A stretch of 64,000 bases of DNA from positions 62,001 through 126,000 of the forward strand of contig CAKSYT010000001.1 in NCBI GenBank assembly GCA_934524985.1, read 5' to 3'. The stretch's first letter is position 1. The number at the start of each line of letters is the position of its first letter. Positions 3,867-63,289 of the stretch are shown here, piece after piece. Both the position numbers and the translations under genes were made by a program. The notes beneath the pieces were generated by a model. The model saw nothing but the letters and a program-made list of their open reading frames with translations. It was not told the DNA's origin and made no database searches. The stretch is from an uncultured Faecalibacterium sp. (GTDB lineage: Bacteria > Bacillota > Clostridia > Oscillospirales > Ruminococcaceae).

Positions 3867-4619
3867 TTATGGCGCACCGGTGCGCCCGCTGGAAAAGGCT
3901 GTGCCGCCCATACCGAGGGTCGTTTTGATGCCGACCCCGCCGTAGGGCGCGAAAGAGAGCAGCGCGTTCCAAAGCTCCAAAAGCGGCGGTGCAAGGTGCG
4001 CTTCGACCGTTACGCTGCCCTGAAAGGACGGAATGCGCGTTTCCTTCAGCGGATAACGTGTGGTGCGCAGGTTGTAGTCCACAATATGCAGTCCCTGCTG
4101 CAAGGCCAGCAGCGCATCGTCATCCGTAAGGGCGTATTCCGGGAAAGCGGCGTTCCAATGCGCGGTCAGGCTTTGCAAAAGCAGGGTCTCCTGCGGAAAA
4201 ATAGCATAGCGGCCGGACTGCTTGAAGGCGCAGGGCGACAGAAAAACGAGCTTTGCGCGGTTTTCGCCGCAGGAACGGCCAAAGCGGATCAGCTCTGAGG
4301 CAGAGACTGCCGGGGAAACAAGAACTTCTGTAACCGGCAGGGTCAGTTCGTGCAGCGGGATCTCCTTCACGGACGTCAGAAGGGGAGAGATGCTCTGCCG
4401 GACTGCCTCGTTCAGCAGGTTGACCGTCCAGACCAGCGCCTGCTTTTCCGGCGAAAAATGCAGGAAATGCGCAATGGGGTGCTCCCCTTGCAGATGCAGG
4501 GCATCGCCAACGTCTGCAGGAAGCTGCGCCATCAGCCAGCCATACAGGCGGTAAGCCCATGCCTGCGGGATGCGTACCCCCGTGGGCGGCGCTAAAACAA
4601 GCTGAAACTGCTGGATCAT
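3867..4619 (-). CDS. cas6: Cas6 CRISPR pre-crRNA endoribonuclease
   Basis: A 250-residue RAMP protein. The C-terminal glycine-rich loop, GGVGIKTTLGMGG at residues 227-239, is the hallmark of Cas6. An N-terminal GEHPIAHFLHF stretch (residues 45-55) offers candidate catalytic histidines (H47, H51, H54). Cas6 cuts the repeat RNA at the 3' base of its small hairpin to give the 8-nt 5' tag; here that product would be ACGG(A/T)AAC. The gene overlaps csm5 by four bases (ATGA) and is the last of the operon. The residue assignment is by position only. Confidence 0.9.
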   Translation of the reverse strand: MIQQFQLVLAPPTGVRIPQAWAYRLYGWLMAQLPADVGDALHLQGEHPIAHFLHFSPEKQALVWTVNLLNEAVRQSISPLLTSVKEIPLHELTLPVTEVLVSPAVSASELIRFGRSCGENRAKLVFLSPCAFKQSGRYAIFPQETLLLQSLTAHWNAAFPEYALTDDDALLALQQGLHIVDYNLRTTRYPLKETRIPSFQGSVTVEAHLAPPLLELWNALLSFAPYGGVGIKTTLGMGGTAFSSGRTGAP

Positions 4620-5719
4620 AAGATACTCACCTCGCAGTACCCATAGGGATAGAACCGGCCGCGAAAACGGGCGTATTTCATGGTGTGCGGGGAGATGCCA
4701 TACTGCTTCACGTCATCCTGATGCTTGTGGTTGGAGAACATTTGCGTCATCTGTTTTGCCGTCCAGCGCAGCCCCTTTTCTTCGCCCAGATAGGGGTACG
4801 CCAGCGATTTGGCAAAAAAGCCGGAACCGCCGCCAAGGATCAGGTGCGGCTGCTGCGGCAGGTTGACTGCACCGCTCGGCGCGGTGAAGTGCCTGCTATA
4901 CGTCTGCTCGTAATAAGTATCAAACTGCTGGATGGCCTCCAGAAGGGACTCTTTGGTAATGCGGCCCTTCAGCACCGACTGATCCAGCGTCAGCTTAAAA
5001 CGAACCGCAGCGCCGGGGATCGCGCATTCCCGGAACAGGGGAAGGCCTTTCTTGCTGTTCTTTGAAAAGGAACCGTCCGGAAGTGCATCGAATTTTCCGC
5101 AAAGAGCCATCCGCTCATTCGGGATGGGCGTACTGTCGGAGACCTGAACCCCCCGGAACAGGCTGTTGACCGCATCGGAAGCGATGCTGCCATCCTCCTG
5201 AAGGCGCAGATGCAGCTGATCGACGTATTGTTCCTCCGGGAATGCGGCGTTATCGTCTGACGCAAGGCTGTGCCCGGTGCTCCGGTCGGCCCGAACAGCC
5301 TGTAAGAGCCATACGGTGCGCAGTGCACCCTTGAGGCTGCTGCCGGGAATGTACGCACTGCCATGGGCATCCCGCTGGAAGGTGTGAAGACAATTCACGC
5401 GGTCAAGATCCGCTGTATCCCCCACCTCGATCGCATAGCGGGTCAGCGTTGTCAGCTCAGTATTGGGAATGCCGCAGTCCTTGGTCAGAAACGCCCAGAG
5501 ATCGGACTGATCGCTGAGCATGAACTGGATGTACCGGTCTACCAGCCCGCGATCTGTCAGAAGGGTGAAAAATTTCTGTTCGTCCAGAAAGGAGGCTTTT
5601 CCGTTGCGGCGGTTGTACAGGTACTCTTTTTTAGTATATGTGCGGCCGTCACCGATGAACAGGGGCGACCGCACATTCAGGATCAGGTCGAATATTTGCA
5701 GATGGTCCTGCTGGATCAT
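4616..5719 (-). CDS. csm5: Csm5, type III-A effector backbone subunit
   Basis: A 367-residue RAMP (Cas7-like) protein. The N-terminal half has the Csm5 pattern: LILNVRSPLFIGDGRTYTKK at residues 12-31, then HGSAYIPGSSLKGALRTVWL near residue 120. The PGSSLKGALR segment is shared with Csm3 and is typical of the fold. Csm5 caps the Csm3 filament at the 3' end of the crRNA and takes part in crRNA maturation. Coupled by four-base overlaps to csm4 upstream and cas6 downstream. Confidence 0.92.
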   Translation of the reverse strand: MIQQDHLQIFDLILNVRSPLFIGDGRTYTKKEYLYNRRNGKASFLDEQKFFTLLTDRGLVDRYIQFMLSDQSDLWAFLTKDCGIPNTELTTLTRYAIEVGDTADLDRVNCLHTFQRDAHGSAYIPGSSLKGALRTVWLLQAVRADRSTGHSLASDDNAAFPEEQYVDQLHLRLQEDGSIASDAVNSLFRGVQVSDSTPIPNERMALCGKFDALPDGSFSKNSKKGLPLFRECAIPGAAVRFKLTLDQSVLKGRITKESLLEAIQQFDTYYEQTYSRHFTAPSGAVNLPQQPHLILGGGSGFFAKSLAYPYLGEEKGLRWTAKQMTQMFSNHKHQDDVKQYGISPHTMKYARFRGRFYPYGYCEVSIL

Positions 5720-6681
5720 AAGGTCACCCCCATCAGGATCGGTTTGGAATAACGGTATGCCGGGTGCGTGTCGGTCAGGCTGACATCGTACAGCGCCCCC
5801 TGATAGGAGTGCCGCAGCACAGAGCCGGCGGCAAGGGCATACTGCGTTTTTTTCTTCAGCGGCGTTTCCACGCAGTCCGAGGCCATAAAGCCGCTGCGGC
5901 GCACCAGCTGGAAAGAGGCGTCTTTCAGCGCGCTGTCCAGTTCATCCGCCTGCGGCAGACTGGTGGTCAGCAGCAGATAGGGCGCACGGTTGGCAGCAAG
6001 CGCACGGCGCAGCCACTTGGTCTGCGCGTCAGGGGGCGTATTCAGGCAGAGCTTTTGCACCACATGGAATTTGCCGTAACCGGTGCTGACCCTGCCGCCA
6101 ATCCCGGTGACGCCCAGCCCTTCCAGCAGGGCGTGCAGCTTTTTGTCCTGTCCGCTTTCCGAGACGCCGCAGATGAAATACAGCCCGCAGTCCGGTGCAA
6201 AGCGGAACAGCCCTACCTGATAAGGCTCGGTGTCTCCCTGCGCGGGGATATTTGCCTTGGTCTGCTCGTAATGCGTGCCGAAGCTTTCCGGCTGGTCATC
6301 AGGCGTAAAATGCCCTGCGTGCAGGCTTTTGGCATAGCGGTCGAAGGCCAGCACAGGGATCCACGCCATCTTTTTAACTTTTTTGCGCAGGGTGGTCTCC
6401 ACCTCCTCGGTGGATTCCGATGCAGCGATGGGCTTGGGCAGATAGAGCGTTTTGTCGTACCACGGCATCGTATCGCTGAACAGAAGCTTGCCCTGCCGGA
6501 CGCTTTCGCATAGCTGCTCCAGCGCGGCTTCTCCCTGCTGGACGAGCGTCTCGTGGCAAAGCGCGGAAAACAAGGTATCAGCCCGCAACGTCTCCTCGGA
6601 GGTGTAGAGCGACAAAGCGGAGTCCGAGCCGCCGAAATGCACGGCGGTGTCGAACTGAAGCTTAAACAGAAAATAGTTCAT
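5716..6681 (-). CDS. csm4: Csm4, type III-A effector subunit (Cas5-like)
   Basis: A protein of 321 residues beginning MNYFLFKLQFDTAVHFGG. This matches the Csm4 N-terminus, as do RADTLFSALCHE near residue 40 and the glycine-rich segment GVTGIGGRVSTGYGKF around residue 200. Csm4 holds the crRNA 5' tag next to Cas10. The start at 6681 is preferred over an upstream ATG at 6699 because GAGGTGG sits six bases before it. The start lies inside the end of csm3, so the two are translationally coupled. Confidence 0.92.
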   Translation of the reverse strand: MNYFLFKLQFDTAVHFGGSDSALSLYTSEETLRADTLFSALCHETLVQQGEAALEQLCESVRQGKLLFSDTMPWYDKTLYLPKPIAASESTEEVETTLRKKVKKMAWIPVLAFDRYAKSLHAGHFTPDDQPESFGTHYEQTKANIPAQGDTEPYQVGLFRFAPDCGLYFICGVSESGQDKKLHALLEGLGVTGIGGRVSTGYGKFHVVQKLCLNTPPDAQTKWLRRALAANRAPYLLLTTSLPQADELDSALKDASFQLVRRSGFMASDCVETPLKKKTQYALAAGSVLRHSYQGALYDVSLTDTHPAYRYSKPILMGVTL

Positions 6682-7336
6682 AGCTGTCCACCTCATCAAA
6701 GAGGGCTTTCAGGCTGTCAAGCTCCACCGGTGCGCCGTAGCTTTTCAGCGCAAAGTTTTTCAGGCTGACGCGGCCGCTGCCGCGGGAGCCGTGACCGCCC
6801 AGATAATCCATCTGCAGCAGCTTCATGCCCTTGGCCAGCAGGGCAAGATCTTCCTCCACCTGTGCCGGGTCGGTGACATCGTAAACGATGCTGACACCAA
6901 AGGCGGCACCGGCGATCACGCGCTCGATCTGGCGGGGATTGGCCACAGAGTTTGCACGGGAGATCGCGTTTTCGGTCTTGACCTCGGTCACGCCCACGTT
7001 GGAAAGCGCTTTTTCGTTGGTCAGGAAGGCGTCTGCAAATTGCAGGCGGGAACGGCGCACCGGCTCCGAGGCACCGAACAGGCGCAGGATCTGCTCGGGG
7101 TCCTTGTTGCAATTACCGGCTTTTGCCATGGCGTCTATATCCTGATATACGCTGCGGGCCAGCAGGGTGCGCAGCTTGCCCTTCAGGCTGCTGCCGGGCA
7201 CGATGGGCAGACCGGTATAGCAGTCGCGCACCACCGGGCTGTCCACAGCACCGATGGCAGAAAACGCAGAGGAACCGCCGATGTGCATGCCGGTGCGCAC
7301 GATCAGGTCGCACCGGATCAGAATTTTTCCATACAT
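6662..7336 (-). CDS. csm3: Csm3, type III-A backbone and target-RNA nuclease
   Basis: A 224-residue Cas7-like RAMP. The aspartate at position 32, in AIGAVDSPVV, corresponds to the catalytic Asp (D33 in Streptococcus thermophilus Csm3) that cuts target RNA every six bases, so the slicer activity should be intact. PGSSLKGKLRTLLA at about residues 47-60 and the glycine-rich GGHGSRGSGRV segment near residue 190 are family signatures. AAGGAGG seven bases upstream, inside the end of csm2, supports the start. Confidence 0.94.
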   Translation of the reverse strand: MYGKILIRCDLIVRTGMHIGGSSAFSAIGAVDSPVVRDCYTGLPIVPGSSLKGKLRTLLARSVYQDIDAMAKAGNCNKDPEQILRLFGASEPVRRSRLQFADAFLTNEKALSNVGVTEVKTENAISRANSVANPRQIERVIAGAAFGVSIVYDVTDPAQVEEDLALLAKGMKLLQMDYLGGHGSRGSGRVSLKNFALKSYGAPVELDSLKALFDEVDSYELFSV

Positions 7337-7338
7337 AA

Positions 7339-7809
7339 TTACCCCTCCTTGCCGCCATAGTAGCGGTGGAAAGCGACCAGCGCTTCCATGTAGTGTGCAA
7401 AACGGATCAGATCCGCACGGTCGGTGGAAATGCCCTTGAGATATTCCAGCAGATACGATTGAGAAATAAAATCTTTCATGGGATAAACTTTATCTTTGCC
7501 GACACTTTCTCCGGTATCTCGACCATATTCATAGGCTACCCGAACTCGCATCAGATTGATCTTTACAACACTTTCGGGCAAAAGTGCTTCTTCGGTGCGA
7601 AGGTTTTCAACGTTAAAAATCTCTGTTACAAGGCTCAGTAGGCCGCGGATCTTGCTAGTGGTCACTTTTTTTGGCTGATTCATCAGTTTGTACATGATGC
7701 GCTCGGCCTCGTCCACATAATCTTCCGGCACCTTTTTTGGTATGGTCTCCGGCGGGAGCTCCTTCTGCTGGTCTTTGCCGCCCCGGCTGTTGTTATTCTG
7801 TTCTGCCAT
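7339..7809 (-). CDS. csm2: Csm2, type III-A small subunit
   Basis: A 156-residue, mostly helical protein with an acidic/polar N-terminus (AEQNNNSRGGKDQQKE). The C-terminal part, LLEYLKGISTDRADLIRFAHYMEALVAFHRY, matches the Csm2 family. It forms the inner filament of the Csm complex. The ATG at 7809 is chosen over an upstream start at 7842; it overlaps the end of cas10 by 17 bases and has GGGTGG nearby. At 156 residues it is somewhat longer than many Csm2 proteins because of the extra N-terminal tail. Confidence 0.88.
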   Translation of the reverse strand: MAEQNNNSRGGKDQQKELPPETIPKKVPEDYVDEAERIMYKLMNQPKKVTTSKIRGLLSLVTEIFNVENLRTEEALLPESVVKINLMRVRVAYEYGRDTGESVGKDKVYPMKDFISQSYLLEYLKGISTDRADLIRFAHYMEALVAFHRYYGGKEG

Positions 7810-10201
7810 CTGTGTCGCCACCCTTTCTGTTCTGATACACATAAATGTAGATCGCGGTGATGAGCTGGTGACGCTGCACGGCGTCTAAAGCCCAGTCCAT
7901 CATGCTGTGAGAAAATTGCTCGTAGAGCGGATAGTCCGGCGCGCTCTTTTTGGGGGAGAGCCGCGCCAGCAGATAGGCATACCGCGCAAGATTGATGCGG
8001 TCGTTCTCCGCTTCCCGCAGCAGCGCCAGCAGATTGTAAAGCATGGAATTTCCGCGCGGGGTCTCGCCTTTGCCTGCGCAGCTGCGGTCATAGGCTTGGA
8101 AGAAGTGCTGCAAGCAGCCTGCCTTTTCTTCCAGCACCTTTGTGCGGAAGGTGTCCCACGCATAGGTATGCCCCTGCTCCGGCTGCACCAGCAGATTGCC
8201 CTTTGCATCCCGGACGGCTTTGCGCTCCGGCATAAACAGCGCCACGGCATTTTTGCCGGGCAGATGCTTGGCGGCTTCCTCCAGTGCGGCGGTCTCCTCG
8301 GCAGAAAGCCGGATGGGGTAATGGTCATCAAAGATGCCGATGCCTGCGCTGAGGGTCAGCGCCCCGCAGGAAAAGGCGGTCAGATTGCGCTGGATGCGCT
8401 GCGCGGCTTCCAGAACATCGTTCCATGCGCCCACAAGGAACACGTCATCGCCGCCGGCATAGACGATGCTTACCTGCAAACCCTCCAGAATGCCGTTGAT
8501 ATAGCCTTTGAAGAACAGGGACATTTGCCGGGAGAACGCCGAGGTGCGGGACAGGTTGACATAGCGCATCCGCCGCACCGGGTCTTTTTCGTTCTCCTGT
8601 TCAAAACCGGAGATGAAGGCATGGCCGAGGTTGTCCACATCCATGCGGCAGACTGCAATGCGGCGCACGCCCGCAGCCTGCTCGGCCAGTTCTTCCATAC
8701 TGTTGCTGGCGGCGTAATCGCCCACATACAGGTTGATGGCGGAGGGAAGGTCGCTGTACGGGGTGTTTTTGGTGTACACCCGCAGGATGGGCTCGCCGGA
8801 AGCAAGACGCTTTTGCGCCGCAGCCCGGTCAGTCGTGGTCAGGTAGGCACTGCCGCCGTCCAGCGTGGGCAGCGTGCAGTCATCGGCTGCCGAGGGCTGA
8901 CGGTTTACCACCAGAACACTCTTGTGCTGAATTTTGTAGGAAAACTCCACAAACAGCTTACACCACGGGCAAAGCTCGTCCGCAAGGGCGGCGCTGGTGC
9001 CGCACACCTTGCATTCCCGGCCGTCCGGGTAAGCGGCGGCATCGTTCAGCAGCCGCAGATCTTCGGCGGTGTAGCGATGGAATTTGTGCTGCTCCAGCAG
9101 CCGGTTCACCCGGCGGAACAGCTCCTTATAGGGGCTGCTCTGGGCGGGGGTGTTGGTCAGGTCGTTGCCGGAGCAGGGCGTCCATGCGTTTGCCAGAAAC
9201 AGCTGGGTGCCGAACTGCTGCTGCAGCCAGCGGTTGAACTGCCGGTTCCACCGGGTCAGGGTATCGGCCACGGCGGCGGTGTTGGGCAGCAGCACATAGC
9301 AGTGCCCGCCGCCGCTGTAAATCAGGTTGGCGCGGGACACGCCGCACCCGGACAGAAGCTCGTCCAGATAGTGCTCCATGAGCAGCTCCAGAAAGAACGA
9401 CCGGCTGCGCAGGGAGCGCAGGGCGTTTTCGGTGCGGACGGTATAAAGGAACTTCTGGATACGGGAAAAATCGGCGGTGTAAAGCAGAAAAACACCCTTC
9501 CGGCAAAAATCGTTCTTTTGCTCAAAAAGCGTTTTGCGCAGGTCGGTGATGTGGTTCGCCTGCACATATTCGCTAAGGCACGCCGCAATGGCTGCGGTGG
9601 TCTTGGCGTGGTCGAACAGGGAAATGTCCGCGCCGTCCCCGGGATAGATGCTGGACGGGAAACAGCCAAGCTGCGTTTCCAGCAGCCCCAGCAGCTTGCC
9701 GAGCTGCTCCGGCTGCGGCTGTAACTGCGGCAGCTGCGCTTCCAGCGTGCGCACGGCCTCGGCGTAGACGGCAGCGGAAAGCGGCTGGGACTTTTGCGGC
9801 AGTTTCAGGCTGCCATTCTGCGGCTGCGCGGGCATCGCCCAGCCGGGGTGGGAACCGTTCAGGTGGGTGAACACCGCATCCAGCGGAAGCTCCCGCCGGT
9901 AGGCATCGCTTTCGCCTTCGGTCTCCCGGCGGTCAGCCGCGCCGGAAAGCAGGTTGGCCAGATAGACCAGATACGCCGGGGAATCGGCTGGCAGTGTTTT
10001 TGCAGCACCGCGCAGCGCGGCGGCGTGGTGGTAACGCACACAGTCCAGAACCGGGGCCCAGTCTGCGCCGGACAAAACGCCGTGCAAAAACTGGCAGCCC
10101 TGTTCACTGTGGCTGCCGCGCTGCCCACCGGCACGGTACACCGCTTTGCCGGTGTCGTGCAGCAGCCCGCCATAGGTGGACTGCAGGGTGAGAACGTTCA
10201 A
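7793..10201 (-). CDS. cas10: Cas10/Csm1, cyclic oligoadenylate synthase and scaffold of the Csm complex
   Basis: An 802-residue protein starting at a TTG codon: AAAGGAG precedes it by eight bases, and no in-frame ATG fits. Domains: HD nuclease with LLHDTGK (H15-D16); zinc finger C397-x2-C400 and C411-x2-C414 (CKVC...CPWC); Palm cyclase motif AGGDD (G583 to D586). Both ssDNase (HD) and cOA synthase (GGDD) motifs look intact, so cyclic oligoadenylate signalling is expected. This matters for the CARF proteins encoded 1.4 kb away. It is the first gene of a tightly packed six-gene operon. Confidence 0.95.
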   Translation of the reverse strand: MNVLTLQSTYGGLLHDTGKAVYRAGGQRGSHSEQGCQFLHGVLSGADWAPVLDCVRYHHAAALRGAAKTLPADSPAYLVYLANLLSGAADRRETEGESDAYRRELPLDAVFTHLNGSHPGWAMPAQPQNGSLKLPQKSQPLSAAVYAEAVRTLEAQLPQLQPQPEQLGKLLGLLETQLGCFPSSIYPGDGADISLFDHAKTTAAIAACLSEYVQANHITDLRKTLFEQKNDFCRKGVFLLYTADFSRIQKFLYTVRTENALRSLRSRSFFLELLMEHYLDELLSGCGVSRANLIYSGGGHCYVLLPNTAAVADTLTRWNRQFNRWLQQQFGTQLFLANAWTPCSGNDLTNTPAQSSPYKELFRRVNRLLEQHKFHRYTAEDLRLLNDAAAYPDGRECKVCGTSAALADELCPWCKLFVEFSYKIQHKSVLVVNRQPSAADDCTLPTLDGGSAYLTTTDRAAAQKRLASGEPILRVYTKNTPYSDLPSAINLYVGDYAASNSMEELAEQAAGVRRIAVCRMDVDNLGHAFISGFEQENEKDPVRRMRYVNLSRTSAFSRQMSLFFKGYINGILEGLQVSIVYAGGDDVFLVGAWNDVLEAAQRIQRNLTAFSCGALTLSAGIGIFDDHYPIRLSAEETAALEEAAKHLPGKNAVALFMPERKAVRDAKGNLLVQPEQGHTYAWDTFRTKVLEEKAGCLQHFFQAYDRSCAGKGETPRGNSMLYNLLALLREAENDRINLARYAYLLARLSPKKSAPDYPLYEQFSHSMMDWALDAVQRHQLITAIYIYVYQNRKGGDTDGRTE

Positions 10202-10292
10202 AATACCATCTCCTTTACAAATTGTGGAAGAATTGCACAATAAATAAAAAATGTGCTTGTGTATTTTGTGAGAGATGCTTTGATTTGGCTCT

Positions 10293-10320
10293 ATTATAGC
10301 ACATTTTGTCGCAATACGAA
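10293..10320 (-). promoter_or_regulatory. probable promoter of the cas operon
   Basis: A perfect TATAAT (10298-10293, minus strand) lies about 90 bases before the cas10 start, with a weak TTCGTA 16 bases upstream. The rest of 10202-10402 is AT-rich non-coding DNA with no other recognisable signal. Confidence 0.55.
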
Positions 10321-10402
10321 AGCCATGGCAGAGAAAATGCCGCAGCAGCTCTGTTCATAGAGCAAAAGCCCACGGAAACCGAAAAGTTAAGGTTTGCAAA
10401 AG

Positions 10403-10436
10403 AAAAACTCCGCATCGTTTTTGATGCGGAGTTTTT
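10403..10436. terminator. terminator at the distal end of CRISPR array 1
   Basis: A 14-bp perfect stem (AAAAACTCCGCATC / GATGCGGAGTTTTT). It directly abuts the last repeat and would stop the minus-strand pre-crRNA before it reaches the cas promoter. Confidence 0.85.
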
Positions 10437-10437
10437 T

Positions 10438-10798
10438 GTCCCCTTGCGGGGATAAGTTGAAATTCGTCGTGTGTCGTCTGCAATTTCTCAGCCTCATCAG
10501 TTTCCGTCCCCTTGCGGGGATAAGTTGAAATATGGGACAACTTTAAATACTTCATGGGCGAAATGTTTCCGTCCCCTTGCGGGGATAGGTTGCAATGGTT
10601 GCAAGCCACGAGATGCCGAACGTGTTCGATTTGTTATCGTCCCCTTGCGGGGATAAGTTGAAATCAAGAAATTCATGAGAGACTATAAGGACCAATTCGA
10701 GTTACCGTCCCCTTGCGGGGATAAGTTGAAATTTACTATGTTTAAGCTGTTTAACAAGAAGTCCGTGTTCCCGTCCCCTTACGGGGCAACCCCATTAT
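10438..10798 (-). CRISPR. CRISPR array 1: six repeats (two degenerate at the ends), five spacers
   Basis: Plus-strand cores GTCCCCTTGCGGGGAT begin at 10438, 10506, 10571, 10639, 10707 and 10773 (the last with a TTAC loop). The full repeat is 32 bases and the spacers are 33-36. Read on the minus strand, the repeat is ATTTCAACTTATC, hairpin CCCC-GCAA-GGGG, then ACGG(A/T)AAC. That last octamer is a classic type III 5' tag (compare ACGAGAAC of Staphylococcus epidermidis Csm), which fixes the transcribed strand as minus. The right-most (first) repeat has lost its 5' half. The left-most (last) one has lost its final six tag bases. Confidence 0.95.
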
Positions 10799-10822
10799 AC
10801 CACGGCGGCGGAAAAATTGAAA
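10794..10822 (-). promoter_or_regulatory. probable promoter of CRISPR array 1, overlapping its first repeat
   Basis: On the minus strand TTTCAA (10822-10817), a 17-base spacer and a perfect TATAAT (10799-10794). The -10 box occupies the place where the first repeat would begin, so transcription should start inside the repeat, just before its hairpin. Confidence 0.5.
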
Positions 10823-10829
10823 TCCCTTT

Positions 10830-11198
10830 TCAGGGCGAGCCATAGCGGCGGAAGCCGGCAAAGGCGAAGATGCTGCGCTTCAGGGTGCTGCCGTCCGGGC
10901 AGGTGGTCTCCTGGCTCTTGCGGCGGGAGCAGGCGGCCAGCGTGGGGATGCCCGCGGCTTCCAGCCGCTGGACTACCCGGTACACAAAGGTGCACTCGCC
11001 CTGACAGAGCACGGCGTCCGGGTCAAGGTGCAGGATGTGGTCGGCGTATACCGTGGCAAGGGAGTCCAGCGCGGCCTCGTCGGCGGCGGGGTCAATGGCG
11101 GGAAAAGCCAGATCGACTACCGTGCCGTAGCGCTGCGCCGCCGCCTGCTGCTCGGCGCTCCACAGGGCATGGGGGTGGTTGGAAAAGTTGATGAACAT
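10830..11198 (-). CDS. small protein of unknown function in the CRISPR locus; possible CARF-like (Csx15/16/20-type) protein
   Basis: A 122-residue soluble protein with GGGAGG seven bases before the ATG at 11198. It begins MFINFSNHPHALWSAEQQAA, a hydrophobic beta strand followed by N-H-P and a W-S-x-E-Q helix start. A central DPDAVLCQGECTFVYRVVQ and AGIPTLAACSRR suggest an alternating beta/alpha (Rossmann-like) single domain. Length, opening pattern and position in a type III locus recall the small CARF-like cOA-binding or cOA-degrading proteins Csx15, Csx16 and Csx20, but I cannot prove membership by eye. It is on the array-1 strand, 30 bases upstream of the array promoter. Confidence 0.6.
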   Translation of the reverse strand: MFINFSNHPHALWSAEQQAAAQRYGTVVDLAFPAIDPAADEAALDSLATVYADHILHLDPDAVLCQGECTFVYRVVQRLEAAGIPTLAACSRRKSQETTCPDGSTLKRSIFAFAGFRRYGSP

Positions 11199-11269
11199 AG
11201 CGTGTACCTCCCGGTTGCTTATAAAAGGCTCCCGCCCGCACAAAACGGACGGGAGCGCTGGCGCGGGGC

Positions 11270-11464
11270 TCACCGCTTGTCGATGCGGTGGCCGACGTTG
11301 TTGCCGGCCAGAGCGCCGGTAACGCCGCCAACGATGGCGCAGGGGACGGTGCCGGCAATGGCACCGACAGGGCCGCCCACGGCGATGCCGATGGTGGCGC
11401 CCTTCACGGCGCCTGCGACGGCACCGGCAGCGGCGCAGCCCAGAGTAGAGATCAGCTCAAACAT
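11270..11464 (-). CDS. glycine-zipper membrane micro-protein
   Basis: A 64-residue protein (MFELISTLGCAAAG...NNVGHRIDKR). Almost its whole length is Gly/Ala-rich with small residues spaced every four positions, as in glycine-zipper domains that pack against membranes. There is a single basic tail (GHRIDKR). AAAGGAGG precedes the ATG at 11464 by eight to nine bases, a strong ribosome-binding site. Similar small proteins are common in clostridia and some resemble bacteriocin precursors. There is no direct evidence of a CRISPR function; it may simply share a transcript with the gene at 10830-11198. Confidence 0.65.
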   Translation of the reverse strand: MFELISTLGCAAAGAVAGAVKGATIGIAVGGPVGAIAGTVPCAIVGGVTGALAGNNVGHRIDKR

Positions 11465-11553
11465 GTTTTTCACCTCCTTTCACCTACCAAAAGCCCATGG
11501 CAAGGACGCAGTTAAGGCGGAAAAAAATAAATCTGCATAAATTTTTTAAACCA

Positions 11554-11582
11554 TTGTAGCTGCGGCCTTTTTATGGTATGAT
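11554..11582 (+). promoter_or_regulatory. promoter of the CARF/sigma/CARF-HEPN operon
   Basis: TTGTAG, a 17-base spacer and TATGAT on the plus strand, 36 bases before the GTG start of the first gene. It resembles a sigma-A promoter, so basal expression need not depend on the operon's own sigma-like protein. Confidence 0.6.
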
Positions 11583-11618
11583 GCAGATAATGAAGCTTAT
11601 AAAAAGGAGTGTTGCCCT

Positions 11619-12227
11619 GTGCTAAAGACTTATATCACCACCGTGCCTTTGCAGGGAAAGCTGGACCCCATGCTGTACCAGCGGGAGCGGGCAGAGGCCC
11701 CCACAGCCACCTGTTTTCCCATCGTGCAGGTGATACGGGATACCCTTGAACCCGGGGACACGGTGCGGCTGCTGGCCATCCGGCAGGAAAACGCCGATAC
11801 CGCCCGCAACTATCAGCGCCTGCTGGAAGAGCTGGCGCAGCTGGGCATTACGGAAGAACAGGTGGAGCCGGTGCCCCTGCCCGAGGATCAGCGCCCGGAA
11901 ACGCTGATCGGCCTGTGCCGGGAGCTGGTGGATGCCCTGCCGCAGGTCACCCGGGTGTATGCCTGCATCACCTACGGCTCCAAGAGCATCCCAGTGGTCA
12001 CGCTGACCGCGCTTACCTGCGCCGAAGCCACCCACACCGAGCTGGAGGTGGGCGGCGTCTATTATGGCGAGGTCAGGCGGGAGAACGGAAAGGTGGTGGG
12101 TGCACGGCTGTATGAGATGTCGGCGCTGTACCAGCTTGCCGGGCTGGTGGGCACCATGCGGGACAGCAAGACCGCAGAAGAGGTGTTCCGTCAGCTGATC
12201 TGGATGAGCCAGCACCGGGAGGACTGA
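11619..12227 (+). CDS. stand-alone CARF-like protein (candidate cyclic-oligoadenylate sensor or ring nuclease)
   Basis: A 202-residue protein starting at GTG with AAGGAG nine bases upstream. The middle segment VYACITYGSKSIPVVTLTAL (about residues 112-131) resembles the D-I-T-H/Y-G-x-(R/K)-x-x-P ligand-binding motif of CARF domains in the TM1812/Csx families. The C-terminus (YEMSALYQLAGLVGTMRD) looks like the closing helix of that fold. No HEPN, nuclease or DNA-binding domain is present, so it is a single-domain CARF candidate. The assignment is by motif only. It is followed after six bases by a sigma-like gene, which suggests that the two work together. Confidence 0.7.
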   Translation: MLKTYITTVPLQGKLDPMLYQRERAEAPTATCFPIVQVIRDTLEPGDTVRLLAIRQENADTARNYQRLLEELAQLGITEEQVEPVPLPEDQRPETLIGLCRELVDALPQVTRVYACITYGSKSIPVVTLTALTCAEATHTELEVGGVYYGEVRRENGKVVGARLYEMSALYQLAGLVGTMRDSKTAEEVFRQLIWMSQHRED

Positions 12228-12233
12228 ACCGCC

Positions 12234-13238
12234 ATGAAGAATGATAAAGTATGGGACAAGATCAATGCCTCGCCCCTGCTGCAGCTGCCGCCGGAGCAGC
12301 GCAAAACGCTGCACGAGGCGGGGGATGAAGGGTTCCGCACCCTCTGGGGCGATTGCTTTGCCGCTGCGCTGACCCTTGGGCAGCCGCTGGACGGCGGGGA
12401 CTTTTGCCGCATCTTCCTGAACGCGTTCGATTTCTGGGTGCCGAAGCCCGGGCAGACCTTCAGCGCCTATCTGTGCAGCGCCCTGAAGCACCAGAACGCC
12501 CATGACGCGCAGCAGGAACAAATGGCGGTGACCGGTTTTGGCCGGGAGACCAACCGCAAGATCAAAAAGGCCTTGGATTATATGGCGCAGCACCAGATCA
12601 CCGAGGAAAAGCTCTGCCACGACCCGGAAAAGGAGCAGCTGGTGGCCGATATTGCCGGGGTCGGGGTCAAGACCCTGCGGGAGGCGCTGCGCAACAAGCA
12701 GTCGATCCTCAGCTTGGACGGCACCGACGGCGAGGAGACGGCACTGGAAACGCGGGTCGCCGCACCGGCGCAAAGCGTGGAGGAGCAGGCGGAGCAGACC
12801 GGTGAGCTGCTGGCATGGCTGCACCGCGGCATCGGGCTGATGAACTTGCAGCAGAAGGAGCAGTACGGCAAGACTGCCGGGCCGCTTTGGAGCAGCGTAC
12901 TGCTGGGCTTTTTGCGCAACAGGGACGTGCTGCCACCGGCAGAGGATACCCCCGCGCGGCTGGCAAACTGCGACGACCTGCGCTTGCTGGAACAGGACAA
13001 CTGCCTGTGGGACATCCTGCTGCTGCATGGGTATGTGGCGTTTACCGTTCAGCCGCCCTATGCGCCCAAAGCGCTGGAATGCGCCGCGCTCCACGCCCTG
13101 CTGGACCCGGAGCGCAACCCGGCGCAGGATAAGACCGTGGCAGAATTTCTTGGTGTGAGCAGGGCGGCGATATCGCAGCGGCGCAAAACATGGCAGCAAA
13201 AACTGGTGCAGATGAAAACGGAACAGGAGGACGTATAA
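12234..13238 (+). CDS. sigma-70-like protein embedded in the CRISPR accessory operon
   Basis: A 334-residue protein. Residues 54-90 (FLNAFDFWVPKPGQTFSAYL) resemble sigma region 2.1-2.2 (A-x-x-K-F-D-P-x-x-G-x-x-F-S-T-Y). Residues 107-165 (NRKIKKALDYM...TEEKL...ADIAGVGVKTLREALRNKQSILSLDG) resemble region 3, including the SLD close. Residues 300-325 (KTVAEFLGVSRAAISQRRKTWQQKL) form a region-4-like helix-turn-helix. Between them an expanded helical segment (190-290) is not typical. GGGAGG precedes the start. It lies six bases after a CARF gene and one base before a CARF-HEPN gene. A sigma or sigma-derived DNA-binding role is inferred; no biochemical activity is shown by sequence. Confidence 0.72.
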   Translation: MKNDKVWDKINASPLLQLPPEQRKTLHEAGDEGFRTLWGDCFAAALTLGQPLDGGDFCRIFLNAFDFWVPKPGQTFSAYLCSALKHQNAHDAQQEQMAVTGFGRETNRKIKKALDYMAQHQITEEKLCHDPEKEQLVADIAGVGVKTLREALRNKQSILSLDGTDGEETALETRVAAPAQSVEEQAEQTGELLAWLHRGIGLMNLQQKEQYGKTAGPLWSSVLLGFLRNRDVLPPAEDTPARLANCDDLRLLEQDNCLWDILLLHGYVAFTVQPPYAPKALECAALHALLDPERNPAQDKTVAEFLGVSRAAISQRRKTWQQKLVQMKTEQEDV

Positions 13239-13239
13239 G

Positions 13240-14673
13240 ATGGGACGCGATGTTTTACTTTTATATATGAGCCCGAAAAACCCGAAGTACACGACCCAGA
13301 CCAACGAGGGCGCGGTGCGGTACCTGATAAAGGAAAAAGAGACCCCGGACTGCATTCTGGCACTGTGCAGCGAGACGGTGCGCAAAAAAGCTGTGGTGGA
13401 AATGCCGGACGGCAGCACCTGCACCACGCTGGAATATTTCCGCGATGCCTTGCGCAGGGTGGGCATCCCGGCAGAGCGGCTGGTGGTGATCGAAGTGCCG
13501 GACAGCATGGATGACGAAAAAAAGCAATTTCAGGCCATCTCGCAGCTGCTGGACAAGATCGAAAAGGAGGACACCCTTTCCATCGACCTTTCCGGCGGTA
13601 TGCGGGACACTGCCATGCTGCTGGTGACCGCTGCCCGCTGTATGCGGGACCTGCGCGATGTGCAGACCCGCCGGGTGATCTATGCAGAGCTGCGCGGGGA
13701 AGAGCCTGTTGCGCACGACCGCACCCAGCTGTATGATCTGTTCGACTTTGTTACCGCCATGGACGCGTTCTTCTCCACCGGCACCGCGCAGAAGCTGAAG
13801 AGCTATCTGTGGAGCGAGGGCGAAAAAGACCCGGTGCTGCACACGCTGCTGACCCGCATCAACCAGTTCTCGGAAGATCTGGCGCTGTGCCGGGTGCAGA
13901 AATTGAACGGCGATCTGAACCAGATCGCGCAGGCGCTGAAAGAAACGCCCAAGAAGAGCCAGAACCTGACCGACCTGTTCTTCCGGCTGCTGAAAGACCG
14001 TTTCAGCACCGAGTTTGCAGAGCTGCTTTCCTCCGGCGAAAAGGCGCTGCCTGCACTGGTGAGCTGGTGCGCCGACCACGGGATGTACCAGCAGGCGCTG
14101 ACCCTGCTGTGCGAGCAGATGCCGGAATATGTCTGCCAGCATCTCTTTGTGCAGCCCACCCCCAAAGGCTGGGAGTATCTGGCGGCGCAGATGCAGAACA
14201 GGGGCAAGCCGTGGGTGTACCCGCTGTTTCACTTCCATTTCTGCCGGTTGACGCTGTTGCAGAAGGAATATCCCTATACAACAGACCTGCGCCTGACCCT
14301 GAGCCGGGATGATGCAGAAGGCAATATGCTGTTCGGCGTAGCAAACGATGCAGAAATGCACGATTATCTGGATATGGCGCTTGCCGCCGACCAGCTGGTC
14401 ATCGACCCTGCCATTCGCCCGCAGCTGGAGCGGGCTGCCCTGCTCTACCAGCGTGTGATGCAGTACCGCAACCAGATCAATCACGCCAGCGCCAACGACC
14501 TAGGCTTGCAGAGCGAGCGCGTTCTGCCGCTGGATACCGAGAGCATTGAAGATGCCCTGCAAAAGATCGCCGTCTACCTGCATGAGATCCGCCCCATGAA
14601 GCGGAACGTCCCGCAGGGCATCAAGGCAATTCCCGTTGACGCGGCTATCCCTGCCGGAACGCCCGCCCGCTGA
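13240..14673 (+). CDS. CARF-HEPN ribonuclease (Csm6/Csx1/TM1812-like)
   Basis: A 477-residue protein. The N-terminal Rossmann-like part (MGRDVLLLYMSPKNPKYTTQ) and the motif IDLSGGMRDTAMLL (D116-L-S-G-G-M-R122) match the D-x-(T/S)-H/G-G-x-R cOA-binding motif of TM1812/Csx2-type CARF domains. Near the C-terminus YRNQINHAS gives R410-N-x3-H415, the R-x4-H HEPN ribonuclease signature (RNxxxH). Such proteins degrade RNA non-specifically when bound by cyclic oligoadenylate made by Cas10. AGGAGG nine bases upstream supports the start. Third gene of the accessory operon, followed by a terminator and array 2. It takes the place of csm6, which is absent from the cas operon. Confidence 0.85.
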   Translation: MGRDVLLLYMSPKNPKYTTQTNEGAVRYLIKEKETPDCILALCSETVRKKAVVEMPDGSTCTTLEYFRDALRRVGIPAERLVVIEVPDSMDDEKKQFQAISQLLDKIEKEDTLSIDLSGGMRDTAMLLVTAARCMRDLRDVQTRRVIYAELRGEEPVAHDRTQLYDLFDFVTAMDAFFSTGTAQKLKSYLWSEGEKDPVLHTLLTRINQFSEDLALCRVQKLNGDLNQIAQALKETPKKSQNLTDLFFRLLKDRFSTEFAELLSSGEKALPALVSWCADHGMYQQALTLLCEQMPEYVCQHLFVQPTPKGWEYLAAQMQNRGKPWVYPLFHFHFCRLTLLQKEYPYTTDLRLTLSRDDAEGNMLFGVANDAEMHDYLDMALAADQLVIDPAIRPQLERAALLYQRVMQYRNQINHASANDLGLQSERVLPLDTESIEDALQKIAVYLHEIRPMKRNVPQGIKAIPVDAAIPAGTPAR

Positions 14674-14701
14674 CCCTAAAACAGAAGAACCCCTGAAAAG
14701 C

Positions 14702-14746
14702 AAAGCCCCTCCGCACTGGTTCGTACCAGAGCGGAGGGGCTTTTTT
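14702..14746. terminator. terminator shared by the accessory operon and CRISPR array 2
   Basis: A long stem AAAGCCCCTCCGC / GCGGAGGGGCTTT with a further inner CTGGT/ACCAG pair and a TTTTTT tail. On the plus strand it ends the CARF-HEPN transcript. On the minus strand it ends the array-2 transcript immediately after the final repeat. Confidence 0.88.
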
Positions 14747-15241
14747 GTCCCCTTGCGGGGATAAGTTGTAATTCACTATCGTTGTACACTCTATCGAGCA
14801 TAAGATGTTTCCGTCCCCTTGCGGGGATAAGTTGTAATATTTCCAGATAAGTATCGTGGACTTTCTATCAAAAGGTTACCGTCCCCTTGCGGGGATGAGT
14901 TGCAATATCGAATCTCGGGCAAAGGTTATGTTTGTAGAGCAGTTACCGTCCCCTTACGGGGATAAGTTGTAATACTGAATACGATTCCCTAATTCTACAT
15001 GGATAGCAGTTACCGTCCCCTTGCGGGGATAAGTTGTAATGTTAAGACCGCTGTCCAGATGACCCCGGGTCAGAAGTTACCGTCCCCTTGCGGGGATAAG
15101 TTGTAATGGTGACAATTCCACTCTGTATATCGTTCAGTCCAAGGTTACCGTCCCCTTACGGGGATAAGTTGTAATTGTATATCGCGCATTCCAAGGCCGA
15201 TACCATGGAGTTTCCGTCCCCTTGCGGGGATAAGTTGTAAT
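14747..15241 (-). CRISPR. CRISPR array 2: eight repeats, seven spacers
   Basis: Plus-strand cores begin at 14747, 14813, 14881, 14948, 15015, 15082, 15150 and 15216, with a period of 66-68. The 32-base repeat on the transcribed (minus) strand is ATTACAACTTATC, hairpin CCCC-GCAA-GGGG, ACGG(A/T)AAC. It differs from array 1 at one fixed position (ATTACAAC against ATTTCAAC), so the arrays have evolved separately but can share Cas6. The distal repeat (14747) lacks the final tag bases. Most spacers are open in a frame on the plus strand, as expected if minus-strand crRNAs bind phage mRNA. Confidence 0.96.
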
Positions 15242-61747: not shown

Positions 61748-63289
61748 TTACTGATTTGCCGCAGCTGCGTCAGGTGCGGTCTCGAACTGGGTGGCCAGCG
61801 CCATGATGTTCTCCTGCGTGGCATCCTTACCGTTGATAAAGCCGGTGATACGGCCATCGCACATGACCATGACACGGTTGGACATACCGATGATCTCGCT
61901 CATTTCAGAGGAGATCATGATAATGCTCTTGCCCTGCTTGGCCAGATCGGCGATGATGCAGTAAATTTCATACTTTGCACCGACGTCGATGCCGCGGGTA
62001 GGCTCGTCCAGAATGAGCACATCGGGGTTGTTGGCGAGCCAGCGGGCGATCAGCACCTTCTGCTGGTTGCCGCCGGAAAGGCTCTTGATCTGGGTCTTGG
62101 GGCTGGGCACCTTGATGGCCATCTTTTCCTTGTTGGTAGCCACCAGATCCAGGATCTTCTGGTTGTCCAGCATGATGGGACCCTTGCGCAGGGCGTCCAG
62201 AGAAGCGATGGAGATGTTATCGGCAACGCTCAGCACGCCCAGAATGCCGGTAGCACGGCGGTCCTCAGTCAGCAGAGCAACGCTCTTTTGGATGGCATCG
62301 CGGGGCTGCTTGATGTTGACCTCTTCGCCCTTGATCCACACCTTACCAGAGGTATGGGCACGCAGGCCGAAGATGCCTTCCATCAGCTCGGTACGCTGTG
62401 CGCCCACCAGACCGGCAACGCCCAGAATTTCGCCCTTTTTCAGCTCAAAGCTGCAATGGCGGAAGGAGCGGGGATGGATGGAGGTGAAGTCCTCCACCTT
62501 CATCATGACCTCGTCCGAGGGCACGTTCTCCAGCGGGGGGAACAGGTTGGACAGCTCACGGCCGACCATCTTTGCAATGATCTCTTCCTTGGTCATGTTG
62601 GCAACGTCCCACTTGCCGATGTACTGGCCATCGCGCATGATGGTGACTTCGTCCGCGATCACCTTGATCTCGTCCATCTTGTGGCTGATGTAGACCAGAG
62701 CAACGCCCTGCTCCTTCAGATCTCGCATGATGCGGAACAGGCTCTCGACCTCGTTCGCGGTCAGAGAAGAGGTGGGCTCGTCCAAAATCAGCACCTTACA
62801 GTTGGCGGAAACGGCCTTGGCGATTTCCACCATCTGCATCTGGGCGATGCTCAAAGAGCCCAGCTTTGCATGGGGGTCGATGTCCAGCTTCAGTTTCTTC
62901 AGCAGTTCATCGGTATCTTTGTACATTTTGGCATGGTCCACAACAGTGACGATGCCGTATTTCTTGGTGGGGTAGCGTCCCAGCCAGATATTCTCGGCCA
63001 CGGTACGGGCCGGAATGGGCTGCAGTTCCTGATGCACCATGGCGATGCCGCGGTCCAGTGCATCCAGCGGGGTGGGGATGGTTACCTTCTGCCCCTCGTA
63101 TTCGATCTCGCCCTCGTCCATCTTGTAAATGCCGAACATACATTTCATCAGAGTGGACTTACCGGCGCCGTTTTCGCCCATCAGAGCCATGACTTTGCCG
63201 GGACGGAGCTCCAGCTGTGCATGATCCAGGGCTTTGACACCGGGGAAGGTCTTGACCACGCCTTTCATTACCAGACGGTATTCTGACAT
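61748..63289 (-). CDS. mglA: galactose/methyl-galactoside ABC transporter ATP-binding protein MglA
   Basis: A 513-residue fused double ATPase. The first half has Walker A GENGAGKSTLMKCMFG, signature LSIAQMQMVEIAKA and Walker B LILDEPTSSL. The second half has the degenerate P-loop VAGLVGAQRTELMEGIFG, signature LSGGNQQKVLIARWL and LILDEPTRGIDVG. The ATG at 63289 is chosen for AAGGAGG ten bases upstream; an upstream start at 63373 lies in the intergenic hairpin. Confidence 0.95.
   Translation of the reverse strand: MSEYRLVMKGVVKTFPGVKALDHAQLELRPGKVMALMGENGAGKSTLMKCMFGIYKMDEGEIEYEGQKVTIPTPLDALDRGIAMVHQELQPIPARTVAENIWLGRYPTKKYGIVTVVDHAKMYKDTDELLKKLKLDIDPHAKLGSLSIAQMQMVEIAKAVSANCKVLILDEPTSSLTANEVESLFRIMRDLKEQGVALVYISHKMDEIKVIADEVTIMRDGQYIGKWDVANMTKEEIIAKMVGRELSNLFPPLENVPSDEVMMKVEDFTSIHPRSFRHCSFELKKGEILGVAGLVGAQRTELMEGIFGLRAHTSGKVWIKGEEVNIKQPRDAIQKSVALLTEDRRATGILGVLSVADNISIASLDALRKGPIMLDNQKILDLVATNKEKMAIKVPSPKTQIKSLSGGNQQKVLIARWLANNPDVLILDEPTRGIDVGAKYEIYCIIADLAKQGKSIIMISSEMSEIIGMSNRVMVMCDGRITGFINGKDATQENIMALATQFETAPDAAAANQ

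Follow-up and report, generated by a model that had tools for sequence, protein, structure and literature searches.

The 64,000-nt stretch of DNA analyzed here (the window; positions 62,001 to 126,000 of the forward strand of contig CAKSYT010000001.1, assembly GCA_934524985.1, from an uncultured Faecalibacterium sp.) carries a type III-A CRISPR locus in which the gene for a stand-alone CARF protein lies directly upstream of the gene for a divergent relative of sigma-70 factors, and it is this pair of genes that is discussed below. The complete III-A set occupies positions 3867-10240 of the - strand in the order cas6-csm5-csm4-csm3-csm2-cas10, with csm2, csm3, csm4, csm5 and cas6 recognized by profile matches (3867..7842) and adjoined by cas10/csm1 (7793..10240; Cas10/Csm1 profile, E 1.5e-208), the product of which has HD at residue 28 and GGDD at residue 596. 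The locus is classed as III-A on the presence of Cas10, Csm2-5 and Cas6, and the Cas7-11 (gRAMP), Csx29 and Csx30 proteins that define type III-E were not found in it. A repeat scan places two arrays on the + strand, at approximately 10438..10787 and 14747..15241, with near-identical but not identical repeats (mostly ...GTTGAAAT in array 1 and ...GTTGTAAT in array 2). Between the arrays, and also on the + strand, three open reading frames (ORFs) encode the CARF protein (202 aa; 11619..12227), the sigma-70-like protein (334 aa; 12234..13238) and a CARF-HEPN RNase of the Csx1/Csm6 type (13240..14673), with intergenic gaps of 6 and 1 nt. This arrangement and the retained cyclase motif of Cas10 agree with an earlier account of the locus made from the letters of the DNA without database searches (the sequence-only reading).

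The CARF protein is matched by the PADLOC CARF2--CARF profile PDLC01822 (E 9e-100) over residues 1-202 of 202, and thus consists of a CARF domain without an effector domain, whereas the NCBIfam model cas_TM1812 stays below its cut-off (E 3e-4). The motif T118-Y-G-x-K122-x-x-P125, which had been picked out from the sequence together with the lack of an effector domain, is indeed there, and an alignment of 21 CARFs shows no variation at G120, K122 or Y149. Since the Cas10 GGDD motif is in place, binding of cyclic oligoadenylate by this protein is plausible, and it is a predicted sensor of such messengers.

By profile comparison, the product of 12234..13238 is a divergent relative of the sigma-70 family that spans regions 2-3.2. 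The family profile aligns with RpoD over residues ~7-210 (hhalign 96.9%, score 80.3), while 100 column shuffles scored at most 21.4 and the reversed profile 20.2, and the profile of the sigma-like family (A2) picks up RpoD-type proteins in the family genomes. The relationship needs family profiles to be seen, because single-sequence Pfam matches are weak (Sigma70_r3, E 0.28; HTH_23, E 0.1). Searches with AlphaFold2 models through Foldseek and VIA returned mostly sigma factors in their top rows, but these were weak, the best E value for the C-terminal model alone being 4.2, and in a sequence search of the PDB RpoS (E 0.19) ranked behind a protein named OT3 (0.023). The protein is laid out as regions 2-3.2 at residues ~55-187, with a divergent region 2.3, helices at ~189-216 that are perhaps 4.1-like, an insert at ~217-290 and a C-terminal helix-turn-helix (HTH) at 299-333. 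The segments resembling regions 2 and 3 in the sequence-only reading are hence substantiated, and the insert it had placed at residues 190-290 exists, although alignment and predicted models better place it at ~217-290, ahead of the C-terminal HTH. Its region 4-like segment fares less evenly: the HTH is unrecognizable as region 4 in the sequence of the 334-aa protein, and coverage of this region comes through relatives, in that a distant partner (locus L105) passes the Pfam Sigma70_r4 cut-off (24.5 bits vs. 24.1). The sigma-like protein is a candidate for binding of core RNA polymerase and promoter-specific initiation.

The association between the two genes extends beyond this locus. In 297 family genomes, the CARF profile (A3) returned six strong copies that correspond to the same six sigma-like loci, with the CARF gene directly upstream of the sigma-like gene on the same strand in all six. 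Remoter stand-alone CARFs were followed up at 14 of 17 loci, with L131 added later (15 loci in all); eight of 11 remote matches were fetched, leaving out G255:C261 (contig end), G112:C21 and G020:C21 (611-aa frame), all six further remote matches were fetched, and from a separate list of 18 CARF matches only that in G954 was retrieved, two of the rows being G001 and the other 15 lying inside 229-670-aa frames. At 12 of the 14 loci the next same-strand gene encodes a protein of 273-347 aa; seven of these partners are matched by profile A2 at E <1e-3 in a small ORF set, the eighth is the L105 protein recognized by Sigma70_r4, and the remaining four (L098, L103, L106 and L109) were assigned by position and group profiles. 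At L131, a class-level relative, the pair lies between Cas1 and Cas10 with its two genes overlapping by 4 nt, and the partner, taken alone, shows a weak relationship only (10.5%, score 29.9 vs. at most 19.6 in 50 shuffles). The pair is thus adjacent in 13 of the 15 remoter loci, in five of them mainly by position, and the CARFs of L100 and L110 have no sigma-like neighbor. Direct comparison of the group of seven remote partners (g2) with RpoD is unconvincing (3.9%, score 26.5; 50 shuffles at most 20.5). Across 23 pairs the CARF and sigma-like distances are strongly correlated (Mantel r 0.96, with 0 of 2000 permutations as high), a figure that includes shared organism history. Judged from this conservation of sequence and gene order, the conserved unit is the CARF gene together with the sigma-like gene. 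A frequent presence of the pair on phages or plasmids was rejected, since searching these two collections by tblastn with the sigma-like protein gave no match; in viral_contigs, eight stretches fit the search pattern and none is a relative. Large proteins without a Pfam match follow the sigma-like gene at L107 (6563-9022; 526 aa, 3 nt after it) and L108 (5506-9179; 935 aa, 17 nt after it).

The third gene of the operon stands outside this unit. Its product is a CARF-HEPN RNase as first read, with a profile match at E 1e-50 (PADLOC) and the R410-N-x3-H415 motif present as RNQINH at residues 410-415, and in each of the five Faecalibacterium loci examined its gene adjoins the pair. However, the HEPN gene has no tblastn match in seven other loci (L012-L016, L102 and L103), and a fixed CARF-sigma-HEPN trio, which the sequence-only reading had treated as one unit, was therefore rejected. 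Homologues of the three genes are thus in part found apart and away from type III loci where the trio is concerned, but the pair stays together.

The genomic context of the pair is likewise variable. Among 31 Faecalibacterium genomes, five have a full Csm1, and an intact sigma-like gene with its CARF occurs in four of these five and in none of the other 26. The fifth (G304) keeps III-A, HEPN and Csx20 but retains of the sigma-like gene a C-terminal remnant only, the CARF being found nowhere in the genome; positions 7560-9330 of its locus (L095) thus record how a III-A system that is intact in other respects has naturally lost the CARF gene and the greater part of the sigma-like gene. By contrast, no Cas10 was found in the four genomes of three other genera (G032, G222, G276 and G285; one 99% complete, the others 86-91%) that hold five copies of the pair. 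The TerY-P triad comprises VWA, PP2C and kinase proteins, and four of these five Cas10-negative copies adjoin VWA, PP2C and a weakly kinase-like protein of ~1130-1250 aa. This protein, seen at L012, L013, L015 and L014 (3591-8728), is mostly unannotated and has a zinc ribbon. At L012 the PP2C gene is cut by the edge of the fetched stretch, and in G032 it overlaps the CARF gene by 4 nt. Among the remoter loci, L102 has CARF, sigma, VWA, PP2C and kinase genes in a row, and VWA and PP2C genes are also close by at L103; a test of the four other Faecalibacterium loci found no TerY-P-like genes. Overall, the 23 pairs were labeled as 12 type III (L098 by its HEPN neighbor alone), six TerY-P and five other, and trees of the pairs require several changes of context, two or three of which are forced by well-supported branches. 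A Cas10-palm match in G168 (L107) was rejected as a minimal Cas10 because it carries GGDEF; similar matches occur in G003, in G255:C69 and twice in G078 (L108). For mCpol, the single match was below the cut-off and lies inside Cas10 itself, in G001, with none in G032, G222, G276 or G285.

Candidate targets for the sigma-like protein are provided by a promoter-like element, CCTTAACT-N12-TGGGCT, which occurs twice on the - strand of the window, oriented in both cases into the genes downstream. One exact copy (10367..10392) lies ~127 nt upstream of cas10. The other (11492..11517) precedes two genes between array 1 and the CARF gene that were absent from the sequence-only reading: a glycine-zipper ORF of 64 aa preceded by a strong Shine-Dalgarno sequence, AGGAGG (11270..11464, -), the first gene past the element, and a gene for a Csx20 ring nuclease (10830..11198, -; PADLOC Csx20, E 6e-32; NCBIfam CAS_Csx20, E 6e-9, below cut-off). 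A scan of the window allowing up to two mismatches gave these two matches, both exact, where 0.29 were expected and three of 100 shuffles reached two. The element is exact at 10 of 10 sites over five loci (the window, L001, L002, L111 and L112), which are close relatives, though the spacer is not the same from one site to the next, and it is accompanied by an upstream T-rich or A/T tract. In G304, which has lost the pair, both sites are recognizable with two mismatches each, and in G001, of which 2.0 of 3.23 Mb were scanned, the element was found only at the two locus sites. Csx20, the glycine-zipper ORF and the two elements seem to belong to the CARF-sigma unit, and the proposal of a transcription switch made in the sequence-only reading gains in the elements before the cas10 and csx20 operons a line of evidence it did not hold. 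The CARF-sigma-HEPN operon itself has a sigma-A-like promoter (TTGTAG-N17-TATGAT; 11554..11582, +), seen by eye and conserved in the five loci, with a weak -35 box (three of six consensus bases); a consensus promoter scan did not list it (two found vs. 1.8 expected). With such a promoter, the switch would be made constitutively.

Several features of these loci stand beside the elements. The glycine-zipper ORF shows 95-98% identity in four other Faecalibacterium III-A loci, was not found at the G304 locus, and matches a glycine-zipper lipoprotein model weakly (E 5e-5, far under cut-off); its product may possibly be a membrane-active effector or a bacteriocin-like protein under the candidate promoter. 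A third element site at L002 (one mismatch) precedes a 394-aa ORF (12882-14115, -) that resembles the C-terminal part of PADLOC C3a193, a possible alternative Cas3 (E 2e-15). Each array is directly preceded by a hairpin that resembles a terminator and has a run of T (10403-10437 and 14701-14746; noted by eye), an unusual position for a leader.

A related element accompanies the pair in the sister clade, where an A/T tract, TTTAAYY, 16 nt and CNATA were recognized by eye. The Faecalibacterium element can be written as CTTAACT-N16-CT, and TTAACT and the 16-nt spacing are shared. In its strict form (TTTAAYT-N15-CCTATA), the sister-clade element has four matches in G222, three of them inside the locus, as a divergent pair with common AAAAAATTTTTT and a single site before a Big_2-domain lipoprotein gene, and the fourth away from the locus, before a lipoprotein-like ORF. 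G276 has one match, at the locus, and G032 and G285 have none; among 16 other genomes, three have one match each, without the AAAA-TTTT tract. The composite form that includes the tract occurs in all four sister-clade genomes (4, 1, 3 and 1 distinct sites) and in one of 76 others, with its reversed control matching in one of 80 genomes. Most sister-clade sites were used in writing the pattern, and the one independent find is G032:C5:79189, before a 169-aa ORF. At the loci, the composite element is present at L012, L013, L014 and L016 (four of five, absent at L015), although at L016 a later start codon has to be assumed for it to lie before the Big_2 gene, and at three loci the related element lies before genes of the TerY-P-like system itself. 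By tblastn, Faecalibacterium and sister-clade loci share only the CARF and sigma-like genes, and it is therefore to the sigma-like protein that we would assign the element. Near the TerY-P-like genes of L012-L015 there are also Sel1-NPCBM and Big_2 genes, some behind the same promoter-like element, and the genes behind it may constitute a surface-protein regulon.

Taken together, the CARF and sigma-like proteins probably form a two-protein, ligand-controlled transcription-initiation module that feeds back on the CRISPR operon. In the mechanism we propose, Csm complexes would bind phage RNA and Cas10 would make cyclic oligoadenylate, most likely cyclic tetra-adenylate (cA4), because cA4 is the main substrate of the ring nuclease Csx20 in published work, where cleavage of cyclic tri-adenylate (cA3) took a higher enzyme concentration (PMC12409355). 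The CARF protein would bind the messenger and switch the sigma-like protein by direct contact, without a protease, and the latter would bring RNA polymerase to CCTTAACT-N12-TGGGCT promoters. From the cas10 element, this would yield more Csm complex, and from the csx20 element more Csx20 and a small membrane-type protein; since the same element would govern both the cas operon and the ring nuclease, the loop would be self-limiting. In parallel, the same messenger would act through the HEPN RNase as an effector, and in other genera the same module would be wired to TerY-P-like phospho-signaling. As to the mode of switching, we lean toward the CARF protein being a ligand-released anti-sigma rather than a ligand-requiring co-activator, the analogy with Csx30 and CalpT being the one reason for doing so. 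The wider claim, that this is an undescribed module in which a CARF second-messenger receptor gates a sigma-70 factor directly, that it is portable between type III CRISPR and TerY-P-like phospho-signaling with its own promoter class in each, and that in Faecalibacterium it sets a positive loop on the cas10 operon and a negative one through Csx20, making interference an inducible, self-limiting transcriptional response, is one that we hold with slightly more belief than doubt.

Some observations weigh against this interpretation. The reversed Faecalibacterium element has five matches in the first 1.6 Mb of G001, and the reversed strict sister-clade pattern has 10 matches in seven of 20 genomes; because the latter matches so often, raw strict-form numbers are uninformative and it is the clustering at loci that carries the signal. 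Furthermore, the occurrence of the pair without Cas10 in four genomes of three genera does not fit a CRISPR-only switch, and the type III-bound framing of the sequence-only reading cannot be kept. The same copies bear on an alternative in which the CARF protein serves as a ring nuclease or as a sponge for the messenger, its neighbor being a regulator that makes no contact with it. Among the ring nucleases known from type III loci is a CARF protein, Crn1 (PMC12409355), and the invariance of lysine K122 in the 21 CARFs would suit such a function, but the locus already has Csx20, more than one ring nuclease is carried by 10 of the 242 ring-nuclease-positive loci counted in that report (PMC12409355), and the adjacent pair persists in genomes where no Cas10 was found, all of which makes this alternative unlikely.

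The sigma-like protein, for its part, could be a sigma-derived DNA-binding transcription factor, activating or repressing through its C-terminal HTH on the element without acting as a sigma subunit. Homology is strongest, however, in regions 2-3.2, the core-binding and -10 part, and the element, with its two boxes 16 nt apart and a tract before them that is T-rich or A/T, has the look of a promoter; we regard this reading as improbable, if worth keeping in view. The divergent region 2.3 and the inserted C-terminal part would also be compatible with an effector that, upon the messenger, occupies host or phage RNA polymerase as a sigma decoy and stops transcription. The promoter-like elements of the locus, however, carry mismatches where the gene has been lost, and a decoy appears very unlikely. 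Initiation by the sigma-like protein under CARF control remains the preferred interpretation.

Links between type III CRISPR and sigma factors have two precedents in the reports cited here, both operating via a protease (PMC11229360, PMC10028731). In type III-E, CASP-sigma is described as a sigma factor of the extracytoplasmic function (ECF) type inhibited by Csx30, which the Cas7-11-Csx29 protease cleaves; as here, the sigma factor lies in a type III locus and has predicted targets in its own locus, the cas1 promoter among them (PMC10028731). The present system differs in its larger sigma-like protein with an insert, its CARF partner and the lack of a protease among the eleven proteins encoded at 3867-14673, in which no match for Lon or SAVED was found (Csx20 and the 64-aa ORF being scanned outside Pfam), as the sequence-only reading had held. 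The CalpL/CalpT/CalpS system is likewise reported as a messenger-controlled sigma response of type III CRISPR, but its sensor is a SAVED-Lon protease that cuts an anti-sigma, whereas the presumed sensor here is a stand-alone CARF encoded beside the sigma-like gene (PMC11229360). Csa3 and RtcR are precedents for CARF proteins tied to transcription control, Csa3 being described as a single CARF-HTH fusion (PMC9704534), in contrast to the two proteins found here, one of them a sigma-70 homologue. By profile, the CARF protein is a member of the stand-alone CARF2--CARF families (PADLOC PDLC01820-01823), which are library entries without a partner, and to which a sigma-like partner is now added; no assigned output for stand-alone CARF families was found in the literature searched. 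In the same literature, neither a sigma-70 homologue coupled to a stand-alone CARF (Makarova 2020, which lies outside it, may mention one) nor a CARF-sigma pair attached to TerY-P was found.

If correct, the proposed module would add to the two protease-based connections between type III CRISPR and sigma-dependent transcription a third that proceeds without proteolysis, and it would explain how a Csm operon could first be switched on and then be damped by the Csx20 of the same locus. Copies of the pair in genomes where no Cas10 was found prompt one to ask which further signals CARF domains detect, and now that a sigma-like partner and candidate promoters have been named, messenger-driven polymerase specificity can be tested directly.

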